From: Thermomicrobium sp. CFH 73360
GTDB lineage: Bacteria > Chloroflexota > Chloroflexia > Thermomicrobiales > Thermomicrobiaceae
DNA: 64,000 bases
Reading direction: 5' to 3'
NCBI RefSeq assembly: GCF_023806465.1
Contig: NZ_JAMSLS010000001.1
Coordinates: 558,001-622,000 of the forward strand
The notes beneath the pieces are model-generated. The model saw only the letters and a list, made by a program, of their open reading frames with translations, had not been told where the DNA came from and searched no databases. The position numbers and the translations under genes are program-made. Numbering within the stretch: position 1 is the first letter of the stretch; the number at the start of each line of letters is the position of its first letter. Shown piece by piece: positions 36,313 to 55,349 of the stretch.

Positions 36313-39300
36313 CTACTGTTTCCCATTTCCGCTTTGAAGGGGATCAAAGTCTTTCGAGAAGACCGCGATATCAAAGGTGTTCTTTCCACGTCGCTTGGCT
36401 GCATAGAGCGCTTGGTCAGCCGCCAAGAGCAGGGTTCCGCTATCCGGATAGGGTGCTGCCGTTGCCAGTGCAGCGCCGATCGAGAGACTCACGTGGACGA
36501 AGGTGTCTTGGAGGTCAAACGGGCGATCCAACGCACGCAGCAACCGTTCTGCAATCCCTTGCACTTCCTCAGGGTTCGTGACTCCCTCCAAAAGCACCGT
36601 GAATTCGTCTCCGGCAAAACGGGCTACCGTGTCGCCGGCCCGGAGATGCGAGCTGAGACGCTGCGCGACCTCCTGCAGCATAAGGTCTCCCGCTGCGTGC
36701 CCCCATGTATCGTTGACTCGCTTGAAGTCGTCCAGATCGATGAAGAGGACGGCGAGCCCACTGCCATCGCGCTGCGCTCGGGCCAAAGCGTGTTCCACGC
36801 GGTCAAGGAACAGGAGACGATTGGCCAGACCGGTGAGCGGGTCGTGGAAAGCTCGGTGTCGCAGATCCTCCGATTCGCGCCAGCGCTCGAGCGCGAGCGC
36901 CGCAAGTTGCGTCGCCAACTCTACGAGTTGCTCTTCCTCCGGCCGCGGAGCTCGTGGCTCGGAGGCATAGAGTGCGATCGTCCCCAATATCCCACCGGTC
37001 GTATCGCGGATCGGCGTTGACCACGCTGCACGGAAACCACATCGCCTGGCAATCTCCCGGTACTCTGCCCACCGTACATCGCTTTCGATGTCCTCCACGA
37101 CAACTGATCGATTGAGGAAAGCTGCCGTTCCGCAGCTCCCCACATTCGGCCCAATCCGGAGGCCGTCGATGGCTGCCACATATTCGGATGGCAGATTCGG
37201 CGCTGCACCGTGATACAGTCGGTCATCCTTCCCCACAAGGAGCACCGAACAGCGAATGCCTGACGCCCGCGCTTCAACGAACCGGCACAACGAATCGAGC
37301 ACTTCGCTCAGTGGAGCCGCCTCCGCGATGAGACGAAGTAAGGCAGTCTGGGCGGCGAGCAACTCTTCGCTCTGCTTACGCTCAGTCACGTCCAAGAGCA
37401 ACCCGTGCCAGAAGAGCGGGTTCCCATGAGCATCGCGGAGCAGCACCGCACGATTCTCCAGCCAGACCCACCGGCCGTCCTTCCGCTGGAAACGGTACGT
37501 GACCTGGAACGGCTCGCCCGTTTCATCGGTTCGGACTGCCTCGGCGTAGATCCGAGGCTGGTCGTCCGGGTGCATACGACTGAACCAAAGGCCAGGAGTT
37601 GCGGTGAACTCCTCGCGGCTGAACCCCGTTACCTCTTCGATACGCTGGCTCAGATACGTCACCGGATAGTGCAGTGTTCCATCCGGGAGCAACACCGGTG
37701 TCGCCGAGGTAACGATCACGGCAGCGGGTATCTGCTCGACTAACGTTCGGTAGCGTTCCTCCGCGGCGCGGAGCTCCTCTTCGATCCGTTTGCGTTCGGT
37801 CACGTCGAGCATCACACCCTGCCAGTAGAGCGGCTTTCCCTCCGCATCGCGGATCAGGCGAGCCGTGCTCTCCAGCCAACGCACTTCACCATCACGCCGA
37901 ACGATACGGAACTCGCTGTGGAAGCGGCCAGTCACCCAAGCCTCACGAGTCTCCCGGCGCACGCGTGGGTAGTCATCAGGATGAATAGCCTGAACCCAGA
38001 GCGAGCGGTCTCGCTGATGCTCCTCTGGTGAATAGCCCGTAAGCTGCTCAATTTGCGGACTGACATAGAGGAGTGGACGATCGATCCGGCCATCTGGGTA
38101 GCGCATTGGCGTCGCGCCTTCGACATACACCACGGCTGGCAACTGCTCGACGAGCGTGCGGTACCGCTCCTCGGCTTCGCGCAGCGCCTGTTCGGCCTGC
38201 TTCTCGGGCGTAATATCAATGATCAGCGCATGCCAGGAGTGGACCGTGCCACTCGCGTCTCGGATTGGCCAAGTCTCATTGCGATGCCAGACGATGCGCC
38301 CGTCCTTACGAACGAATCGGTACTCGACTCGGATTGGTTCGCCCGTACGCTCCAGGCGCCCCAACGCTTCCAGCACTCTCGCCCGGTCGTCAGGATAGAT
38401 CGATCGAATGAGGACACCGTGCTGTTGCCATTCCTCTGGGGTATACCCCGTGAGATCCAGGATCCGCGGGCTTACATACCGGGTCTGAAAACTCGGCAGC
38501 CCATCCGTCAGCCACTCCGCCCGCGGCTCCACAATGACCAGTGCTGCCGGCAGCTGCTCCACCAGCGTGCGGAAACGCTCCTCCGCTTCACGGAGTGCGT
38601 GTTCGGCACGCTTGCGCTCGGTGATATCCATCAGGACTGCTTGCCGGGCCTCGATCGCACCGTCTGGCCCACGGATCACCCGTACCTCGTGCCAGAGCCA
38701 GACTGTTCGGCCGTCCTTCCGCAGGAATCGGTACTCCAGGCGGAGTGGTTCTCCGGTCTCTTCATGTCTCCAGAATGCCTGTAACACCCACTCCCGATCC
38801 TCTGGGTGCAAACTGCGCGCCCAGATCCCTGGAACTTTCCAGTCTTCCGGTGTGTATCCAGTGACTTCCTCAATCTGCGGGCTGACATACGAGGTCTCGT
38901 ACCCAGGCATCCCGTCCGGCAGACGCAGCGCATAGGGCACTACGCGGATGACCGCAGCCGGCAGCTGCTCTACCAGCGTGCGGTACTGCGCCTCAGCCTC
39001 GCGTAAGGCCTGCTCCGCTCGCTTGCGCGCAGTGATATCGGTCAGCAGTACCTGACGGTAGAGTGGGCGTCCTTCGGCGTCATGAATCACCTTCGTCCGA
39101 TGCCAGATCCAGATGAGCGAGCCGTCTTTCCGGTAGAGGCGGTACTCGATGTCGAGCGGTTGAGCGGCCTGCTCTGAGGCGTGCATCACCGTAAAGACCC
39201 AATCGCGGTCGTCTGGATGAAGCTGACGCGTCCAGGTTCCCGGTACCAGCCATTCGTCCGGCGTGAACCCAGTTAGCTGCTCAATGCCTGGACTCACATA

Positions 39301-42300
39301 GTGGAACGTGTAGTGCCGCGTCCCATCCGGATGGATTTCGGAGAAGGCGGAACGGATCAACACCGCGCCAGGAAGCTGCTCGACCAGCGCCCGATACCGT
39401 GCCTCGGCTTCCCGAAGGGCGAGTTCCGACTCCTTACGTCGCGTGACATCCATCAGCAGGACCTGCCGCTGGTATGGCCTCCCGTCAGGTGACCGAATAA
39501 CTCGTGTGATGTGCCAGATCCAGATGATCTGTCCATCCTTCCGGATATACCGGTACTCGAGGTCAAGCGGGCTCCCGGTCCGCTCTGACTCTCGCATCGC
39601 CGCGAGCACGAACTCGCGATCCTCTGGGTGAAGCTGCCTTGACCAGCGTCCAGGTTGTCCCCATTCCTCGACCGTGAAGCCGGTCAACCACTCGATGTTC
39701 GGGCTCACGTAATGGATGTCGTAGGCCAGCGCACCATCGGGTAGAACACGCGAGGTCGGAGCGCGCAGGATCACCGCTCCCGGTAGTTGCTCGACGAGTG
39801 TCCGGTAGCGCTCCTCAGCCTCGCGCAGGGCGAGTTCGGTTTGCTTGCGCTCTGTGATATCGGTCAGCAAAACCTGACGGTAGAGTGGCGAGCCATCAGA
39901 GGCACGGATAACGTGGGAAATGCTCCAGATCCAGATGACGCGCCCGTCCTTCCTCCGGAAGCGGTACTCGATGGAAATCGGGGCACCAGTGCGATCTGCT
40001 TCGGTCATCGCACTGACCACACGCTCCTGGTCGTCCGGATGGAGTCGCTCAAGCCACAACCCGGTGTGCCACTCCGAGGATGTGAAGCCGGTCAAGCGCT
40101 CGATGGCCGGGCTCACGTACGGATACGGCTCCGTCGTGACCAACATTGAGGTTTCGGGGAAGAGCGGCCGGATGAGCACCGCGCCCGGCGACTGCTCCAC
40201 CAGCGTGCGATAGCGTTCCTCGGCTAGTTGGAGTCGTTCGAGCAGTGCCCGCTGCTCAGTGATGTCCAGCGTGATGAGATAGAGATATCGCGGTCGACCA
40301 TGCGCGTCGCGGACGAGCGCACCGTCCTGACGTAGCCAGACCATGCGCCCGTCCTTCCTCCGGAAACGATACTCGAGCGGCTGCGTCGGCCCCCTCGTGT
40401 ACCAGGTGCGTGCCTCCGCGAGCACCCACTCCCGGTCGTCTGGGTGAATCCCCCGCATCCAGACACCGAGCTCGTTCCACTCCTCTGGCGTGTACCCTGT
40501 GAAGTCGACAATTCGCGGACTGCAGTAGAGCGTCCGCCAGCCCAGCGTGCCGTCTGGCAATGGCACTGGCTCCGGTTCGACGATCGTCACCGCTGCCGGG
40601 TGATGCTCGGCCAAGAGGCGGAAACGCTCCTCGGCCTCCCGGCCCGCTTCCTCTGCCAGCTTCTCGCTGGTCACATCGAGCAGGAGCGAGTGCCAAAAGC
40701 GCGGTTCACCGTGCTCGTCAACGATAAGCGTCGCCTCGTGTCGAATCCAGACCGTACGTCCGTCGGCTCGGACAAGCCGGTACTCCACCGTCTGGCTGCC
40801 TAGCTCGCGCAGACAACGCTCCAGACGAGCGAGGACACGCGGCCGGTCATCCGGATGGATGAGTCGCATCCAGAGCCCTGGCTCGGCCCATGCCCCAGGT
40901 GGATACCCGCTGAGCTGCTCGATCTGCGGGCTGACATACACCAACTCGAAGCTTGGTACCCCATCAGAGAGCCAGCTCGGTTGCGCCGCAACGACGAGCA
41001 AGGCCCCCGGCAGTTGCTCGACGAGTGTCCGGTAACGCTCCTCAGCCTCGCGCAGGGCCTCCTCCACCCGCTTCTGCGCGGTGACATCCACGATCACCCC
41101 TTGCCACGCGAGCGGGCGCCCTGTCACATCACGTAACAGCAGAGCATACTCACGCACCCAGACCACCGACCCGTCAGCTCGGACCAGCCGATAGTCGAGT
41201 GCGAACGGCTCCCCGGTCGCATCGGTCCGCAGCGACTCGTCGCGTACCCGCTCGCAGTCCTCCGGATGGATGAGCGAGACGTAGAGGTCGGGGCGAGCGA
41301 GAAACTCACTCACCGGATATCCGGTGAGTTGCTCGATGTACTCGTTGACATACTGCCAGCGGTAAGAGGGCATCCCGGAGGGCGCGAGTTCCGGCTCCGG
41401 ATCGGTGGCGTAGATGACCGCGGGCATCGTCTGGAACAGCAAGGTCAGACGCTGCTCTGCCTCCTCGCGAGCGCGTTCTGCCTCCATCCGTTCCGTGATG
41501 TCTTGAACGACCCCGTGGAGGTAGCGTTTGCCCTGCCGCTCTCGGCTGAGACGTGCAGTATCTTCCACCCAGATTAACTGCCCGTCACGCCGAATCATGC
41601 GGTAACGCAACGAGTACGGGCGCTCGTCCCGGATTGCCTGCTCGACTTCCTGTACGACCCAGTCACGATCCGCCGGATGGAGATGCTCGAACCACCGGCC
41701 GCGAACGCGGAGCCAGTCATCCGGGGTATAGCCGAGCAACAGCTCGATCTGCGGACTGATGTAACTCGGCTCACTCCGGTCATCAATCGGCACACGGTAC
41801 ACGACCACTGGCAGGAGTTCCACAAGTTCTCGATACCGTTGCTCAGCAGCTGCGGCCCGTCGCTCGCTCGCCCGTCGCGCCGAGATGTCACGCAGCCGCA
41901 CGACGTGAGCCAGAAGATGGCTGTCCTCCCGAACCGGCAGATAGTCGAGCTCGATCACTGCACCATCGCGGCGCTCCAGCTCAAGCTGCCGGAGCGGTTG
42001 CCCTGTGGCGAATGCTTGGCGCAGGCGATCAATGAACTCCATATCGGCGAATCGCTGCCGGAAGAGCATGACAACGTCGGCAAACGAGCATTCCGACGAG
42101 GCCCCAGACTCCCAACCGCCGAGCAGTTGCCGCGCAATCGCATTCGCGTAGCGGAGCATGAGATCTGGGTCAAAGATCAGGATACCGATCTCCACATGCT
42201 CAACTAGGAACGGACCGAGCCAGCGTTCTAATGCACTCGGATCGTCCAGTGGTGGGCGAGAGCGGTCAGCGAGCGGTCGGAGCAGCCAGCTCGCAGTGGC

Positions 42301-42555
42301 CAATTCCCCTGGCACGCTTGCGACTTCACACCGTTGGATTCGGTCGGAGAGGGTGAGCGTCAGCTCGGCCCACCCCGGCTCGCCACGCCGAGCTGCGGCC
42401 AGCAGCGCCTCAACCTGCGCACGTTCGTGCAGGGGCACCAGCTCAACCACCGCGCGCCCGAGGAGTGCAGCGTCCGGGGGCGTTGCAGCAGTAATCCGCC
42501 CCAGCGCATCGAGGCGCAGGAGAATCGTCATCGTCGTTGAGACCGCGGCCTGCAC
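36313..42555 (-). CDS. giant multi-PAS sensor diguanylate cyclase (13 PAS + GAF + GGDEF)
   Basis: A 2080-residue cytoplasmic protein without obvious membrane segments. From the N-terminus: a degenerate PAS, a canonical PAS, then eleven consecutive PAS_3-type units of about 135 residues each joined by near-identical helical linkers (variants of AEERYRTLVEQLP and DITERKRAEQALRE). Then a GAF domain (about 1735-1890) and a GGDEF domain (about 1895-2070). The catalytic motif is AGDEF (RFAGDEFTVLL), a variant still active in some cyclases. FIDLDDFKRVNDTWGHAAGD is intact. GTG 42555 is taken as start, ATG 42531 is also possible. It probably makes cyclic di-GMP in response to several signals. The broken HD-GYP gene follows. 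Confidence 0.93.
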   Translation of the reverse strand: MQAAVSTTMTILLRLDALGRITAATPPDAALLGRAVVELVPLHERAQVEALLAAARRGEPGWAELTLTLSDRIQRCEVASVPGELATASWLLRPLADRSRPPLDDPSALERWLGPFLVEHVEIGILIFDPDLMLRYANAIARQLLGGWESGASSECSFADVVMLFRQRFADMEFIDRLRQAFATGQPLRQLELERRDGAVIELDYLPVREDSHLLAHVVRLRDISARRASERRAAAAEQRYRELVELLPVVVYRVPIDDRSEPSYISPQIELLLGYTPDDWLRVRGRWFEHLHPADRDWVVQEVEQAIRDERPYSLRYRMIRRDGQLIWVEDTARLSRERQGKRYLHGVVQDITERMEAERAREEAEQRLTLLFQTMPAVIYATDPEPELAPSGMPSYRWQYVNEYIEQLTGYPVSEFLARPDLYVSLIHPEDCERVRDESLRTDATGEPFALDYRLVRADGSVVWVREYALLLRDVTGRPLAWQGVIVDVTAQKRVEEALREAEERYRTLVEQLPGALLVVAAQPSWLSDGVPSFELVYVSPQIEQLSGYPPGAWAEPGLWMRLIHPDDRPRVLARLERCLRELGSQTVEYRLVRADGRTVWIRHEATLIVDEHGEPRFWHSLLLDVTSEKLAEEAGREAEERFRLLAEHHPAAVTIVEPEPVPLPDGTLGWRTLYCSPRIVDFTGYTPEEWNELGVWMRGIHPDDREWVLAEARTWYTRGPTQPLEYRFRRKDGRMVWLRQDGALVRDAHGRPRYLYLITLDITEQRALLERLQLAEERYRTLVEQSPGAVLIRPLFPETSMLVTTEPYPYVSPAIERLTGFTSSEWHTGLWLERLHPDDQERVVSAMTEADRTGAPISIEYRFRRKDGRVIWIWSISHVIRASDGSPLYRQVLLTDITERKQTELALREAEERYRTLVEQLPGAVILRAPTSRVLPDGALAYDIHYVSPNIEWLTGFTVEEWGQPGRWSRQLHPEDREFVLAAMRESERTGSPLDLEYRYIRKDGQIIWIWHITRVIRSPDGRPYQRQVLLMDVTRRKESELALREAEARYRALVEQLPGAVLIRSAFSEIHPDGTRHYTFHYVSPGIEQLTGFTPDEWLVPGTWTRQLHPDDRDWVFTVMHASEQAAQPLDIEYRLYRKDGSLIWIWHRTKVIHDAEGRPLYRQVLLTDITARKRAEQALREAEAQYRTLVEQLPAAVIRVVPYALRLPDGMPGYETSYVSPQIEEVTGYTPEDWKVPGIWARSLHPEDREWVLQAFWRHEETGEPLRLEYRFLRKDGRTVWLWHEVRVIRGPDGAIEARQAVLMDITERKRAEHALREAEERFRTLVEQLPAALVIVEPRAEWLTDGLPSFQTRYVSPRILDLTGYTPEEWQQHGVLIRSIYPDDRARVLEALGRLERTGEPIRVEYRFVRKDGRIVWHRNETWPIRDASGTVHSWHALIIDITPEKQAEQALREAEERYRTLVEQLPAVVYVEGATPMRYPDGRIDRPLLYVSPQIEQLTGYSPEEHQRDRSLWVQAIHPDDYPRVRRETREAWVTGRFHSEFRIVRRDGEVRWLESTARLIRDAEGKPLYWQGVMLDVTERKRIEEELRAAEERYRTLVEQIPAAVIVTSATPVLLPDGTLHYPVTYLSQRIEEVTGFSREEFTATPGLWFSRMHPDDQPRIYAEAVRTDETGEPFQVTYRFQRKDGRWVWLENRAVLLRDAHGNPLFWHGLLLDVTERKQSEELLAAQTALLRLIAEAAPLSEVLDSLCRFVEARASGIRCSVLLVGKDDRLYHGAAPNLPSEYVAAIDGLRIGPNVGSCGTAAFLNRSVVVEDIESDVRWAEYREIARRCGFRAAWSTPIRDTTGGILGTIALYASEPRAPRPEEEQLVELATQLAALALERWRESEDLRHRAFHDPLTGLANRLLFLDRVEHALARAQRDGSGLAVLFIDLDDFKRVNDTWGHAAGDLMLQEVAQRLSSHLRAGDTVARFAGDEFTVLLEGVTNPEEVQGIAERLLRALDRPFDLQDTFVHVSLSIGAALATAAPYPDSGTLLLAADQALYAAKRRGKNTFDIAVFSKDFDPLQSGNGKQ
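37700..41860 (-). repeat. tandem PAS-coding repeat, about 400-bp period
   Basis: Eleven copies of a linker-coding sequence recur every 388-420 bases (near 37735, 38131, 38540, 38957, 39367, 39781, 40186, 40595, 41005, 41425 and 41813). Two of these, 39781-39831 and 41008-41058, differ at only two of 51 positions. The similarity at DNA level points to recent duplication or conversion. Confidence 0.8.
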
Positions 42556-42843: not shown

Positions 42844-44316
42844 ATGGTGCGAGAGCCACAGGCCATTGATCTGAAAACGCAACCGCATGACTCGGTGCTC
42901 CACCGGCTTCCTGCCGCTTTGCACGACATCAACGATCGGCTGGCACGGGTTTTCGCCGCCGCCGGCCACGAGCTCTACCTCGTCGGCGGGGTGGTACGCG
43001 ATCTCCTGCTTGGCCGACCGGTGACAGACCTGGACTACACCACCTCAGCACCCCCGGAGGAGACGAAGCGACTGGGGCAGGAAGCCGGGGCCGACAGCAT
43101 CTATACTGTCGGCGAAGCGTTCGGCACTATCGGCCTGGTGTTCGCCGGAATCACGGTCGAGATCACGACGTACCGCACCGAGTGGTACCCAACGCCGGAC
43201 CGGCGCCCAGCCGTCCGCTTTGGCAACAGCCTCAGCGAGGACTTGGCACGACGCGATTTCACAGTCAATGCGATCGCCGTCCACGCGGTGACTGGGGAGT
43301 TGGTCGATCCCTTTGGTGGGTCTCATGATCTGGAACACCGACTCCTGCGTGCCGTCGGTGATTCACGGGAACGCTTCCACGAAGACCCCCTCCGGATGCT
43401 GCGAGCGGCACGATTCGCCGCGCAACTCGGCTTCGAGGTAGAGCCGGAAACGCGAGCAGCGATCCGGGAACTCGCGGCCGAACTCCAGCGTGTCAGCGTT
43501 GAGCGGATCACGCAAGAGCTCAACCGCCTGCTCCTCGCGCCGGAGCCTGACCGTGGCCTCGAGCTCTTGCGGCAGACTGGGCTCCTCTCCTTCGTCCTTC
43601 CGGAACTCGTTCCCCTGGCTGAGGACGTGGCCGACCGGCGTCACAAGGACATCTGGCGCCATACCTTACAGGTCGTCCGACAGAGCCCACCGCGTCTCGC
43701 CGTGCGCTGGGCTGCCCTCTTGCATGACGCTGCCAAGCCGATGACGCGGACGATCGACGAGCGTGGCGAAGTCCACTTCTTCGGCCACGAGATCGAGGGC
43801 GCACATCTGGCACGCAAGACGTTGCGGCGCCTCCGGCAAGAGAAGACGCTCATTGAGCGCGTGGCACGGCTGGTCGAGCTGCATCTTCGTCCGGCTGCCT
43901 ACGATGAGACGTGGACCGACTCGGCAGTCCGTCGCCTCATGGTCGAGGCTGGTGATCTCCTGAACGACCTTCTTGATCTGGTTGCGGCCGACGTGACCAG
44001 CGCACGTGCTACCCGGCGCCGCGAAGCGGCCGCACGGATCGCGCGCCTCCGGGCGCACATCCGACGCCTCGAGGAAGAAGCGGCACTGGCGCAAATCAAA
44101 AGTCCTCTGGATGGTCATGAACTCATGGCGATCTTCGGGTTGCCGCCAGGACGCTGGATCGCCGAGGTGAAAAGCTACCTTCGTGAACTCGTCATCGAAG
44201 GACAGCTCGCCCCGGGTGACAAGGAGACTGCTCGCCTGCTCGCCGAGCGCTGGCTTGCTCAGCATCCTGAGATCATCGCACAGGCAGCTCAGCGATCTCG
44301 CGGGGCTGTTGATTGA
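42844..44316 (+). CDS. cca: CCA tRNA nucleotidyltransferase / poly(A) polymerase family
   Basis: A 490-residue enzyme of the class II nucleotidyltransferase group that adds or repairs the 3' CCA end of tRNA. Motifs: [20 protein letters not shown] with the Gly-Gly (48-49) and metal-binding Asp62 and Asp64, [31 protein letters not shown], and an HD domain later (HDAAKPMT). ATG 42844 follows GGAGG at 42834-42838; the open frame upstream is not supported. A TACAAT box at 42815-42820 may be its -10. Its 3' end overlaps the chemoreceptor gene on the other strand by 44 bases. Confidence 0.92.
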
Positions 44317-51420: not shown

Positions 51421-51984
51421 CCTGATCCTCCACGTTCCGGTGAGGACACGCTCAGTCTTCTCTATTCGGCAGATTGCGCGACACGCTGAAGGGGGTAGTC
51501 GCCGTGTCGCTCCAGATCCTGGCCCGTCCGCCGGGAGTTGAGCCCAAGGGTAGAAGCGGCGAACGATCCCAGGCCAGGGGTCGCGAGCGAGAAGGCAGTC
51601 GTTTGCAACAACAGAGGCTCGGGAGGACGCAACCCCGGTGAAGGGCAGTGACACAGTTTGTATCTGTGCGTGGCGCAGTCACCCGAGCCTCTGAGTTTCA
51701 TCTCACAGCTGGCCTCTAGATCACCAGTACGTTGAAGAAGCTTCCCAGCAGCTCGAAGCGAGCGCGCGGCGATTTCTCCCGATATGCCCTGGATACATCC
51801 CATCGTCGGCAGTATGCATCAGAGCAAACAGGTGTCGGCAGCAGAATGGGTGGAGCGGATCATTGACCTCACCACCCATAAGTCAGCGCTCTGCAATTGG
51901 GTTGGCACGAGCCGAGTTCACGGCTGCGACGGGCAGTTGTGCACGGAGCGGCACGAAGCAGACCTTCCACATCACCGCGGGGGC
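51421..51984. other. intergenic region with a long inverted repeat
   Basis: No gene is supported here. The main feature is an inverted repeat at 51612-51693 (see next entry). Open frames in both directions show no family resemblance. Confidence 0.5.
51612..51693 (-). ncRNA. possible structured leader RNA of the GGDEF-EAL gene
   Basis: An 82-base element is closed by a perfect 12-bp stem (CAGAGGCTCGGG / CCCGAGCCTCTG). Inside, the minus strand can form CACAG-N7-CTGTG plus GTGA/TCAC, and CCC-N6-GGG. It ends about 190 bases before the GTG start of the cyclic di-GMP phosphodiesterase gene. The strand and function are uncertain. CACGCACAG recalls the GEMM riboswitch, but the rest of that consensus is missing. 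Confidence 0.35.
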
Positions 51985-52013
51985 TTGACTCGGGCAGTCG
52001 TCTCTGCTATCCT
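51985..52013 (+). promoter_or_regulatory. sigma70-type promoter of the glutamine synthetase region
   Basis: TTGACT (51985-51990), 17-base spacer, TATCCT (52008-52013). The predicted start is about 52020-52021, exactly where the structured leader begins. Confidence 0.65.
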
Positions 52014-52020
52014 AAAAGTG

Positions 52021-52193
52021 CACGGCCCTGAGGGGTGAGTGCGCAGCCGGCGCAACGGTCGGCGGAAGCTGACCGGCCCTGGCTCTCACCGAGCCGCCAT
52101 TGGCGGTCGCGGCGTCCGGTGATGAACCGGCTCCGCGGGCCAATGAGAGTTGTGAGGGCGGCGTCGGCTGCGAGGCTGCCAGTCAGGGCCGTG
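52021..52193 (+). ncRNA. 173-nt structured leader RNA upstream of glutamine synthetase
   Basis: The 5' and 3' ends pair perfectly over 11 bases (CACGGCCCTGA with TCAGGGCCGTG). Inside, a 12-bp helix is possible between 52042-52053 and 52161-52172, flanked by a symmetric 10/10 internal loop. Further hairpins include 52056-52075 (8 bp, GGAA tetraloop), 52116-52130 (CCGG, loop TGATGAA) and a CATTGGC/GCCAATG pairing (52098-52104 with 52139-52145). The start coincides with the predicted transcription start. GTTCTTTCC follows the closing stem and could act as a weak terminator. It may be a riboswitch-like leader or a small RNA; I do not recognise a known family. Confidence 0.55.
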
Positions 52194-52214
52194 TTCTTTC
52201 CCTGATTACCTCAA

Positions 52215-52231
52215 TTGTGCAAATTGCACAA
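52215..52231 (+). promoter_or_regulatory. palindromic operator-like site before glutamine synthetase
   Basis: TTGTGCAA, one base, TTGCACAA: a perfect 8-bp inverted repeat with a central A, about 115 bases before the glnA start. It has the form of a dimeric repressor or activator site and could mediate nitrogen control; it does not match the GlnR/TnrA consensus. Confidence 0.5.
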
Positions 52232-52347
52232 AACCGCCGCACAAGACGTAGCAGACTGCCGAGGCGTTCCCGATCCTCCGGCGTCTACCCTGGTGTCAGG
52301 CCGGCAGGGACGACTGACGGCGAGAGGCCAACACGCGGGGGATCGCC

Positions 52348-53796
52348 ATGTACGGCACGTGCAGAACACCGGGAGAGGTCCTCGATCTCATCCGACAACG
52401 CAATATTCAGATTGTTGACCTCCGGTTCACCGACCTTCCAGGCACCTGGCAGCACGCCTCGTTACCGGCCAGTCAACTCGGCCTCGCCGACTTCGAACGT
52501 GGGATTGGATTCGATGGATCGAGTATCCGTGGTTTCCAAGCCATCGAAGAAAGCGACATGCTCCTCGTCCCCGATCCAACGACCGCCTTCGTCGACCCCT
52601 TCGCCACGATCCCGACATTAGCCATCATCTGCAATGTCATTGACCCGGAGACGCGGCAGCCCTATTCGCGTGATCCGCGCTACATCGCGCAGAAGGCCGA
52701 AGCGTTCCTTCGCACCACCGGAATCGCTGACCAGAGCTTCTGGGGACCGGAGATCGAATTCTTCCTCTTCGATCACGTCAGCTACGATGTCCTGCCGTAC
52801 CGGATGGGCTTTAGTATCGACTCCCGCGAAGGTTATTGGAACAGCGGCCGAAACGACGGAAAGCCTAACCTCGGCTACACCATCCGCCCCAAGGAGGGAT
52901 ATTTCCCTGCACCGCCGCACGATACCTTCCAGGACATCCGCAGCGAAGCTGCGCTTATCCTGGAGCAGATCGGTATTCCGGTCGAAATGCACCATCACGA
53001 GGTCGCGACGGCCGGGCAGGGTGAGATCGACATGCGTCGCGATACGCTGACCGCGATGGCCGATAAGGTCATGATCTACAAGTATGTCGTCAAGAACGTG
53101 GCGCGCAAGCACGGTTGTACAGCCACCTTTATGCCGAAGCCGCTCTTTGGCGATAACGGCAACGGCATGCACACGCACCAGAGCCTGTGGCGGGACGGCA
53201 TGAACCTCTTCTACGCACCCTGCCACTACGCTGAGTTGTCCGAGACGGCACTCCACTACATTGCCGGGCTCTTGACGCACGTCGACGCACTGCTCGCCTT
53301 CACGAGTCCAACAACGAACTCCTACAAGCGGCTCGTGCCGCACTACGAAGCACCAGTCAACATTGCCTTCTCTAAGCGCAACCGTAGCGCCTGTGTCCGC
53401 ATTCCGATGTACACCACCGGGCCGGAAAATGCGGCAACCAAGCGGATCGAGTTCCGACCGCCCGATCCGAGCTGCAATCCGTATCTGGCCTTTGCCGCCA
53501 TGCTCATGGCCGGAATCGACGGCATCATGCAGCGCCTCGACGCCAGCCCATTTGGCCCGCTGGATGTGAATACCTACCACCTTCCACCGGAGGAGGCAGC
53601 TCGGATTCGAAGCGTCCCTGGTTCGCTCAGCGCGGTGCTCGAGGCACTGGAGCGTGATCATTCCTGGCTCCTCGAAGGCGACGTCTTTACGCGCGACGTG
53701 CTTGAGACCTGGGTCGCCTACAAGCGGGAAAAGGAGCTCCAGGAAGTCAATATCCGGCCACATCCCTATGAGTTCTACCTGTACTTCGATGTATGA
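52348..53796 (+). CDS. glnA: glutamine synthetase, type I (beta-like)
   Basis: A 482-residue enzyme that makes glutamine from glutamate, ammonia and ATP. Signature runs are FDGSSIRGFQAIEESDMLLV, HHHEVATAGQGEIDMR, KPLFGDNGNGMHTHQSLW and PTTNSYKRLVPHYEAPV, and the metal-binding glutamates are present. NTYHLPPEEAARI at the C-terminal side keeps the Tyr that is adenylylated in beta-type enzymes (usual NLYDLPPEE), so control by adenylylation is possible. ATG 52348 is the start. Upstream are a promoter, a structured leader and a palindrome. Confidence 0.95.
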   Translation: MYGTCRTPGEVLDLIRQRNIQIVDLRFTDLPGTWQHASLPASQLGLADFERGIGFDGSSIRGFQAIEESDMLLVPDPTTAFVDPFATIPTLAIICNVIDPETRQPYSRDPRYIAQKAEAFLRTTGIADQSFWGPEIEFFLFDHVSYDVLPYRMGFSIDSREGYWNSGRNDGKPNLGYTIRPKEGYFPAPPHDTFQDIRSEAALILEQIGIPVEMHHHEVATAGQGEIDMRRDTLTAMADKVMIYKYVVKNVARKHGCTATFMPKPLFGDNGNGMHTHQSLWRDGMNLFYAPCHYAELSETALHYIAGLLTHVDALLAFTSPTTNSYKRLVPHYEAPVNIAFSKRNRSACVRIPMYTTGPENAATKRIEFRPPDPSCNPYLAFAAMLMAGIDGIMQRLDASPFGPLDVNTYHLPPEEAARIRSVPGSLSAVLEALERDHSWLLEGDVFTRDVLETWVAYKREKELQEVNIRPHPYEFYLYFDV

Positions 53797-53984
53797 CGGA
53801 CGTGTTCGCACATTGGTGGGTGGGGATGGGAGGTGGTGTGATGGGACCATGACGCGTTAAGGAGTTAAGGAGTACACTCATGGGCGGCCAGGATGGCCAC
53901 GGCGTAGCCGCGAGGATCAACCGGTGGCAACGGCGCCGTTGGTGGATCGGCAGTGACGGTCGATTCCAAGAAGGAGGTTTTGCT

Positions 53985-55349
53985 TTGGTTGTCGATACGA
54001 GTGTCGTCGGTCGTCGCGCACCAGCTCCGACCCCAGAAGAGGTGCTGAAGCGTGCCGAAGAACTCAAAATCGAGTTCGTCAGCCTCCAATTCACCGACAT
54101 TATGGGGATCGTGAAGAACGTCCAAATCCCCGTCGATGTCTTCCCTCATGTTATCGAGCAGGGACAGTGGTTCGACGGCTCCTCGATCGAGGGGTTTGCC
54201 CGCATCGCCGAGAGCGATATGTTTCTGATGCCGGACCTCTCTACCTTCGCCCCGATTCCTTGGGATCCGCAGACCGCACGTGTGATCTGCTGGGTGTACA
54301 ACCCCAACGGGGAACTCTTCCCGGGTGATCCGCGTGTGGTCCTTCTGCGTCAGCTCGAGCGGGCAGCAAAGCTCGGCTTCGTCTATAACACCGGGCCAGA
54401 ACTCGAGTTCTTCCTGTTCCGCAAGGAGAACGGCAAGATCATGCCGCTCCCCCATGACCAAGGGAGCTACTTCGACTTGACCACTGACCTTGCTGCCGAG
54501 GTACGCAAGGACATGATCCGAGCTCTGCAGGCCTTCGGCATCAAGGTCGAGGCTGGGCACCACGAGGTCGCGATCGGCCAGCACGAGATCGACTTTGAGT
54601 ATTCCGATGCTCTTACGACGGCCGATAACGCGATCACCTTCAAGTACACGCTGAAGGCGATCGCGCAACACCATGACCTGCACGCGACCTTTATGCCTAA
54701 GCCGATCGCCGGCATCAATGGGAGCGGCATGCACACGCACCAGAGTTTGGCATCGATTGAGACTGGTGAGAACCTGTTTGTCGATGTCGACGACCCGTAC
54801 GGGCTCTCTGATCTCGCCAAACACTTCATCGCTGGCCAGCTGTACCACGCCCGCGGGATGTGCGCGGTTCTGGCACCACTCGTCAATAGCTACAAGCGGC
54901 TCGTGCCCGGCTACGAGGCACCGGTCTACATCAGCTGGGCACGGCAGAACCGCTCGGCCCTGATCCGCGTGCCAGCCGTGCGACATGGTCGCCTCCAGGC
55001 AACACGCATCGAGCTCCGTTGTCCGGACCCCTCCGCCAACCCCTACCTGGCCTACGCGGTCATGCTCGCTGCCGGACTGGATGGGATTGAGCGGAAGCTG
55101 TCGCTTCCCGAGCCGGTGGAAGAGAATGTCTACCACTTCACGGACGAAGACCTCAAGCGGCGCAACATCCAGACGCTCCCGGCGACGCTCGGTGAAGCAA
55201 TGGCAGAACTGGAGAAGGACGAGGTGATCCGCGAGGCGCTTGGTGAGCACGTCTTCGAGCGGTTGCTCGAAGCACAGAAGCGCGACTGGGACACCTTCCG
55301 GCAGTATGTGACCCAGTGGGAGCTCGATCGGTACCTCGAGATCTACTGA
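53985..55349 (+). CDS. glnA: glutamine synthetase, type I (alpha-like)
   Basis: A second type I glutamine synthetase, 454 residues from TTG 53985, which has AAGGAGG at 53971-53977. An in-frame ATG at 53880, itself preceded by AAGGAG, would add 35 residues with many Arg and Trp. The sequence (FDGSSIEGFARIAESDMFLM, GHHEVAIGQHEIDFEYSDAL, KPIAGINGSGMHTHQSL) is of the alpha class. The region VYHFTDEDLKRRN replaces the adenylylation loop, so adenylylation is not expected; feedback inhibition is the usual control in this class. It lies 188 bases after the first gene and ends at a strong terminator. Confidence 0.94.
   Translation: MVVDTSVVGRRAPAPTPEEVLKRAEELKIEFVSLQFTDIMGIVKNVQIPVDVFPHVIEQGQWFDGSSIEGFARIAESDMFLMPDLSTFAPIPWDPQTARVICWVYNPNGELFPGDPRVVLLRQLERAAKLGFVYNTGPELEFFLFRKENGKIMPLPHDQGSYFDLTTDLAAEVRKDMIRALQAFGIKVEAGHHEVAIGQHEIDFEYSDALTTADNAITFKYTLKAIAQHHDLHATFMPKPIAGINGSGMHTHQSLASIETGENLFVDVDDPYGLSDLAKHFIAGQLYHARGMCAVLAPLVNSYKRLVPGYEAPVYISWARQNRSALIRVPAVRHGRLQATRIELRCPDPSANPYLAYAVMLAAGLDGIERKLSLPEPVEENVYHFTDEDLKRRNIQTLPATLGEAMAELEKDEVIREALGEHVFERLLEAQKRDWDTFRQYVTQWELDRYLEIY

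Follow-up and report, generated by a model that had tools for sequence, protein, structure and literature searches.

In the 64,000-nt stretch of Thermomicrobium sp. CFH 73360 analyzed here (assembly GCF_023806465.1, contig NZ_JAMSLS010000001.1, positions 558,001 to 622,000 of the forward strand; hereafter the window), a highly structured element of 173 nt can be found on the + strand at 52021-52193, upstream of a glutamine synthetase (GS) gene with Gln-synt_N and Gln-synt_C domains (52348-53796, +). The GS start codon lies 154 nt after the element, and a second, different GS gene follows in tandem at 53880-55349. The element is preceded by a sigma70-type promoter, TTGACT-17-TATCCT (51985-52013, +), from which the predicted transcript would start 6-8 nt further on, at about 52019-52021, and end within a T-rich stretch (52019-52199, ends inferred; a covariance model match covers 52019-52196). 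This promoter is the only sigma70-like site in 51650-52400, where shuffled sequences give 0.0 +/- 0.2. Between the element and GS, a palindrome, TTGTGCA-AAT-TGCACAA (52215-52231), is found about 120 nt before the GS start; it is a candidate operator of an unidentified regulator and belongs to the GS gene rather than to the RNA. A 173-aa TTG frame at 52100 overlaps GS out of frame and is not supported as a coding sequence. Elsewhere in the window, a 2080-aa ORF (36313-42555) looks, judging its translation by eye, like a long series of repeated PAS-type sensor domains ending in a GGDEF domain.

The predicted fold begins with a closing stem, P1, in which 52021-52031 (CACGGCCCTGA) pairs perfectly over 11 bp with 52183-52193 (TCAGGGCCGTG). 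An internal loop separates P1 from a 12-bp helix, P2 (52042-52053 with 52161-52172), which opens into a three-way junction with the P3 hairpin (52056-52075; 8 bp, tetraloop) and with P4 and the multiloop arms that it closes (52076-52159), including the strongly conserved GGTCGCGG...CCGCGGGCC arm. P1 is directly followed by TTCTTT (52194-52199), proposed to form an intrinsic terminator together with P1; a local-hairpin scan does not see it because the hairpin partner is 160 nt away. The MFE of the element is -118.0 kcal/mol against a dinucleotide-shuffle mean of -85.7 (z -7.36, 0/200 shuffles as good). Of 2128 sampled 173-nt windows on both strands it ranks first, followed by its own minus strand at -99.0, while the best unrelated stretch reaches -90.6. 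The only other clustered perfect 11-mer inverted repeat of similar span in the window (42903-43088) lies inside a coding gene and folds only to z -3.3.

A BLAST search over 60 relatives returned homologues in the genus of the window (g1) and in two other genera of the Thermomicrobiaceae (g3, the sister genus, and g4), the match in genome G001 covering 52019-52193 and stopping exactly at the stem end. A pattern scan places the homologues in Thermomicrobium, Thermalbibacter and further Thermomicrobiaceae. Absence of covariation among relatives had been named beforehand as an outcome that would count against the element, and the element survives this test: an alignment of ten homologues supports 59 consensus pairs, with 97.8% of cells paired (100% in P3), 15 pairs changed on both sides, five of them in the closing stem, and 55 double-change cells against 19.1 in shuffles (0/500 shuffles as good). 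While shuffling does not preserve relatedness, slid controls, the safer yardstick, gave values far below those observed. The observation made in the earlier note, a strongly structured element starting just after a promoter in front of GS, is confirmed.

No family of Rfam 15 matches the window or the loci of the element's type (named R1) above the curated gathering cut-off. At E<=10, the segment 51950-52400 returned only 17.4 bits for Pseudomon-groES (cut-off 50) and 15.7 bits for SNORD23 (cut-off 64). Literature searches found no description of such an RNA; the genome paper of T. roseum lists one small RNA gene on each replicon (PMC2615216), for which no names were found in the parts consulted.

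Although R1 is found upstream of and co-oriented with GS in 9 of its 10 genomes, and every Thermomicrobiaceae genome with this GS subtype has it, close linkage is not conserved. The distance between the RNA and GS is 154-180 nt in g1 and g4 but 489-548 nt in g3, while the palindrome (TTGTGCAnnnTGCACAA), exact in six genomes and present with one or two changes in g3, remains close to the GS start in all nine genomes carrying this GS. In genome G018, the interval holds what reads as the end of an MFS transporter gene. In Thermalbibacter longus (genome G013, locus L029), the order is RNA, MFS gene and second GS, the first GS being absent, so that the RNA stays when the gene behind it changes.

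R1 is one of a family of homologous RNA genes. Its covariance model found weak full-length matches elsewhere in the window's genome (G000) and in genomes G006 and G007, whose ends showed the same layout: TTGACA-17-TAnnnT, then CGRTYCCGANGAGT, and about 170-200 nt later GGCTCGTCGGRRYCG and a run of T. Pattern searches with either arm uncovered further members, giving 54 loci in all, with one to three per genome: types R2 and R3 in Thermomicrobium (in G000, contig C12, 592445-592656 minus, and contig C1, about 350002-350201 plus, respectively), R3-like loci in g3 and g4, types A and B in genus g2, type C in genus g5, and, in two other families of the order Thermomicrobiales, 7 loci of 250-290 nt (family f2) and 14 loci of 182-193 nt (family f3). 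Among the Thermomicrobiaceae (f1), 18 of 21 genomes have one or more members, and the other three are only 54-78% complete, several of the genomes being drafts. A further candidate in g1, RNA-4 (GGATCGTCGGGGCCG), showed no proper stem partner with a promoter and was dropped. Loci of types R2, R3, A, B, and C have no Rfam match at E<=1.

The members share the promoter (TTGACA-17/18-TAnnnT, at the same place wherever enough upstream sequence is present), a TSS-proximal closing stem (YCCGANGAG...CTCGTCGGG) and a T-rich tail, but differ inside; promoter and stem are conserved in register in f1, f2, and f3. The R1 of the window has drifted to CCTGAGGGG while keeping its pairing and position, and the R1 of g3 and g4 is intermediate. 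In all homologues the closing stem is followed by a more or less U-rich stretch, best read as a long-range intrinsic terminator; it is strongest at loci L016 and L017 and weak in the genus of the window (TTCTTT, and CGTCTTC in G001), where read-through into GS is therefore possible. Across 35 distinct family sequences P1 is 92% paired, with 8 pairs changed on both sides, a score of 0.348 against 0.229 in shuffles and at most 0.116 in slid controls, and a fixed mismatch position (mostly G.G) at pair 10. All 15 members tested fold better than shuffles (z -3.4 to -9.2), always more stably on the strand read from the promoter. Run over 62 kb of member loci, the R1 model has other members as its seven best matches (E 7e-5 to 0.01), and eleven of its twelve best are members (to E 0.3). 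A single sequence alignment of all types aligns only P1 reliably, but types R1, R2, A, B, and C fold into the same plan of P1, internal loop, P2, junction with P3 and P4, and multiloop. For f3, only P1, promoter and tail are shown to be shared, and its members (L168-L178, L182-L184) carry two conserved GCGGGG segments inside. Types R2 and R3 (e.g., L049, L074, L090, and L098) have a Shine-Dalgarno-like GGGAGGTGA/GGGGGTGA in the 3' half, with no start codon conserved behind it.

With regard to the range of the family, the combined promoter-arm pattern has no hits when reversed (0 in 158 genomes), and a scan of 400 Chloroflexota genomes gave nothing beyond chance outside the order. The few hits there, two in the class and three more in the phylum sample, look like chance: L149 and L150 have no stem partner, the other three being judged without folding. 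As the pattern is strict, to the point that the R1 of g1 itself would not match it, absence outside the order is not proven.

Several paralogues face convergent genes, namely a protoglobin gene for R2, a PALP-family (threonine-synthase-like) gene for R3 of G000, an ABC-transporter permease gene for R3 of genome G009, an rsmI-type gene for A and C, and a pyruvate kinase gene for B, and such RNAs cannot be leaders. In f3, by contrast, the RNA is often followed by a co-oriented gene, 2-hydroxyacid dehydrogenase-like in four genomes and queuosine salvage-like in two.

Taken together, these data are best explained, with good though not full confidence, by a stand-alone small-RNA gene. In this view, transcription starts at the first bases of P1, and the last-made strand of P1 closes the whole molecule just as the U-rich stretch is transcribed, so that P1 would double as the terminator stem. 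The product would be a compact RNA of about 175-180 nt with both ends locked in a helix, and so probably long-lived, which most likely acts in trans as a protein-bound RNA, the conserved P1 and junction being the common recognition part and the interior the paralogue-specific part. Its place in front of GS would be inherited gene order, perhaps with some read-through. While the fold, the conserved promoter and stem, the family and the decoupling from GS rest on sequence and covariation, it is by inference only that transcription, termination, stability, trans action and protein binding, and hence function, are proposed, and no protein partner is identified. The interpretation given in the earlier note is partly supported: it was right that the element is a structured RNA without an assigned family starting at its promoter, and an independent small RNA was one of its two readings, but the other, a nitrogen- or metabolite-sensing riboswitch of GS, is not supported.

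Among the alternatives, a cis-acting leader of GS survives best, although it remains unlikely. Here P1 and the U-rich stretch would terminate transcription, and a ligand or protein opening P1 would let RNA polymerase read into GS. The co-orientation with GS in 9 of 10 genomes and the weak T-stretch in g1 can be put forward for it. Against it stand the variable distance, the MFS gene or its remnant in between, the retention of R1 without this GS in G013, the homologues ending in front of convergent genes, and the fact that no conserved alternative pairing freeing P1 was seen. The glutamine riboswitches, glnA RNA and Downstream-peptide RNA, are likewise located upstream of a glutamine synthetase gene (PMC2864571), but they have no match here at any useful E-value, and R1 is much larger, is followed by its own terminator-like end and is not tied to nitrogen genes in its homologues.

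A diverged or substituted 6S RNA is still less likely. R1 resembles 6S RNA in being GC-rich, of similar length (about 160-190 nt), and with paired ends and its own, inferred, transcription. Moreover, canonical 6S RNA (RF00013) is found in g2 and g5 (L063-L070, in genomes G007, G012, G015, G014, G017, G010, G020, and G019) and weakly in genus g6, whereas no match at E<=1 is found in G000 or any genome with R1, a presence complementary to that of R1, which occurs exactly in g1, g3, and g4. However, the consensus has P2, a three-way junction and P3/P4 where 6S has a long hairpin with a central single-stranded bubble, and since the homologues A, B, and C live beside a canonical 6S in g2 and g5, the family is not 6S. 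Genera g1, g3, and g4 may simply hold a 6S too diverged for RF00013. A mobile or repeat element (MITE-like) with terminal inverted repeats, suggested only by the perfect 11-bp repeats, is all but excluded by the single copy at DNA level in the genome, the promoter and tail in register, vertical inheritance at conserved places and, above all, the compensatory changes, which contradict it.

Other known RNAs do not account for the element. Bacterial Y RNAs, bound by Ro60/Rsr, also have a closing stem with conserved sequence and a conserved mismatch position, a variable interior, a U-rich end and several paralogues, but there is no Rfam match, and the TROVE domain (PF05731) is absent from all Thermomicrobiaceae genomes while being detected in the control, Deinobacterium, so that a Y-RNA role through Ro is ruled out. 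The SRP RNA of the genome lies elsewhere (G000, C12:98774-98873, 78.8 bits). No RNase P family matches in the window, and T. roseum has a separate C-type RNase P RNA of 350 nt (PMC7191817). Chloroflexi-1 (RF01698), reported from Chloroflexus aggregans (PMC2864571), is likewise a conserved, structured RNA of unknown function found by comparative genomics, but it does not match here.

More speculatively, and with less than even likelihood, it can be hypothesized that these RNAs form a new class of modular structured RNAs, in which a common terminal-stem module, i.e., a promoter-proximal stem that would also terminate transcription and recruit a shared protein, carries interchangeable interiors, with one to three members per genome throughout an order acting as global regulators; the member in the window may have taken over from 6S RNA in three genera, although such a replacement is in itself unlikely. 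The existence of the family raises the question of why 6S RNA is not detectable exactly where type R1 occurs. Its sharp sequence signature (promoter plus YCCGANGAG arm) allows its members to be listed, and cultured strains of Thermomicrobium and Thermalbibacter exist in which expression and partner proteins are accessible. Order-wide, multi-copy structured RNAs without an Rfam family are uncommon, and some such RNAs, e.g., 6S, CsrB-like, Y RNA and OLE-type, have turned out to have basic roles.
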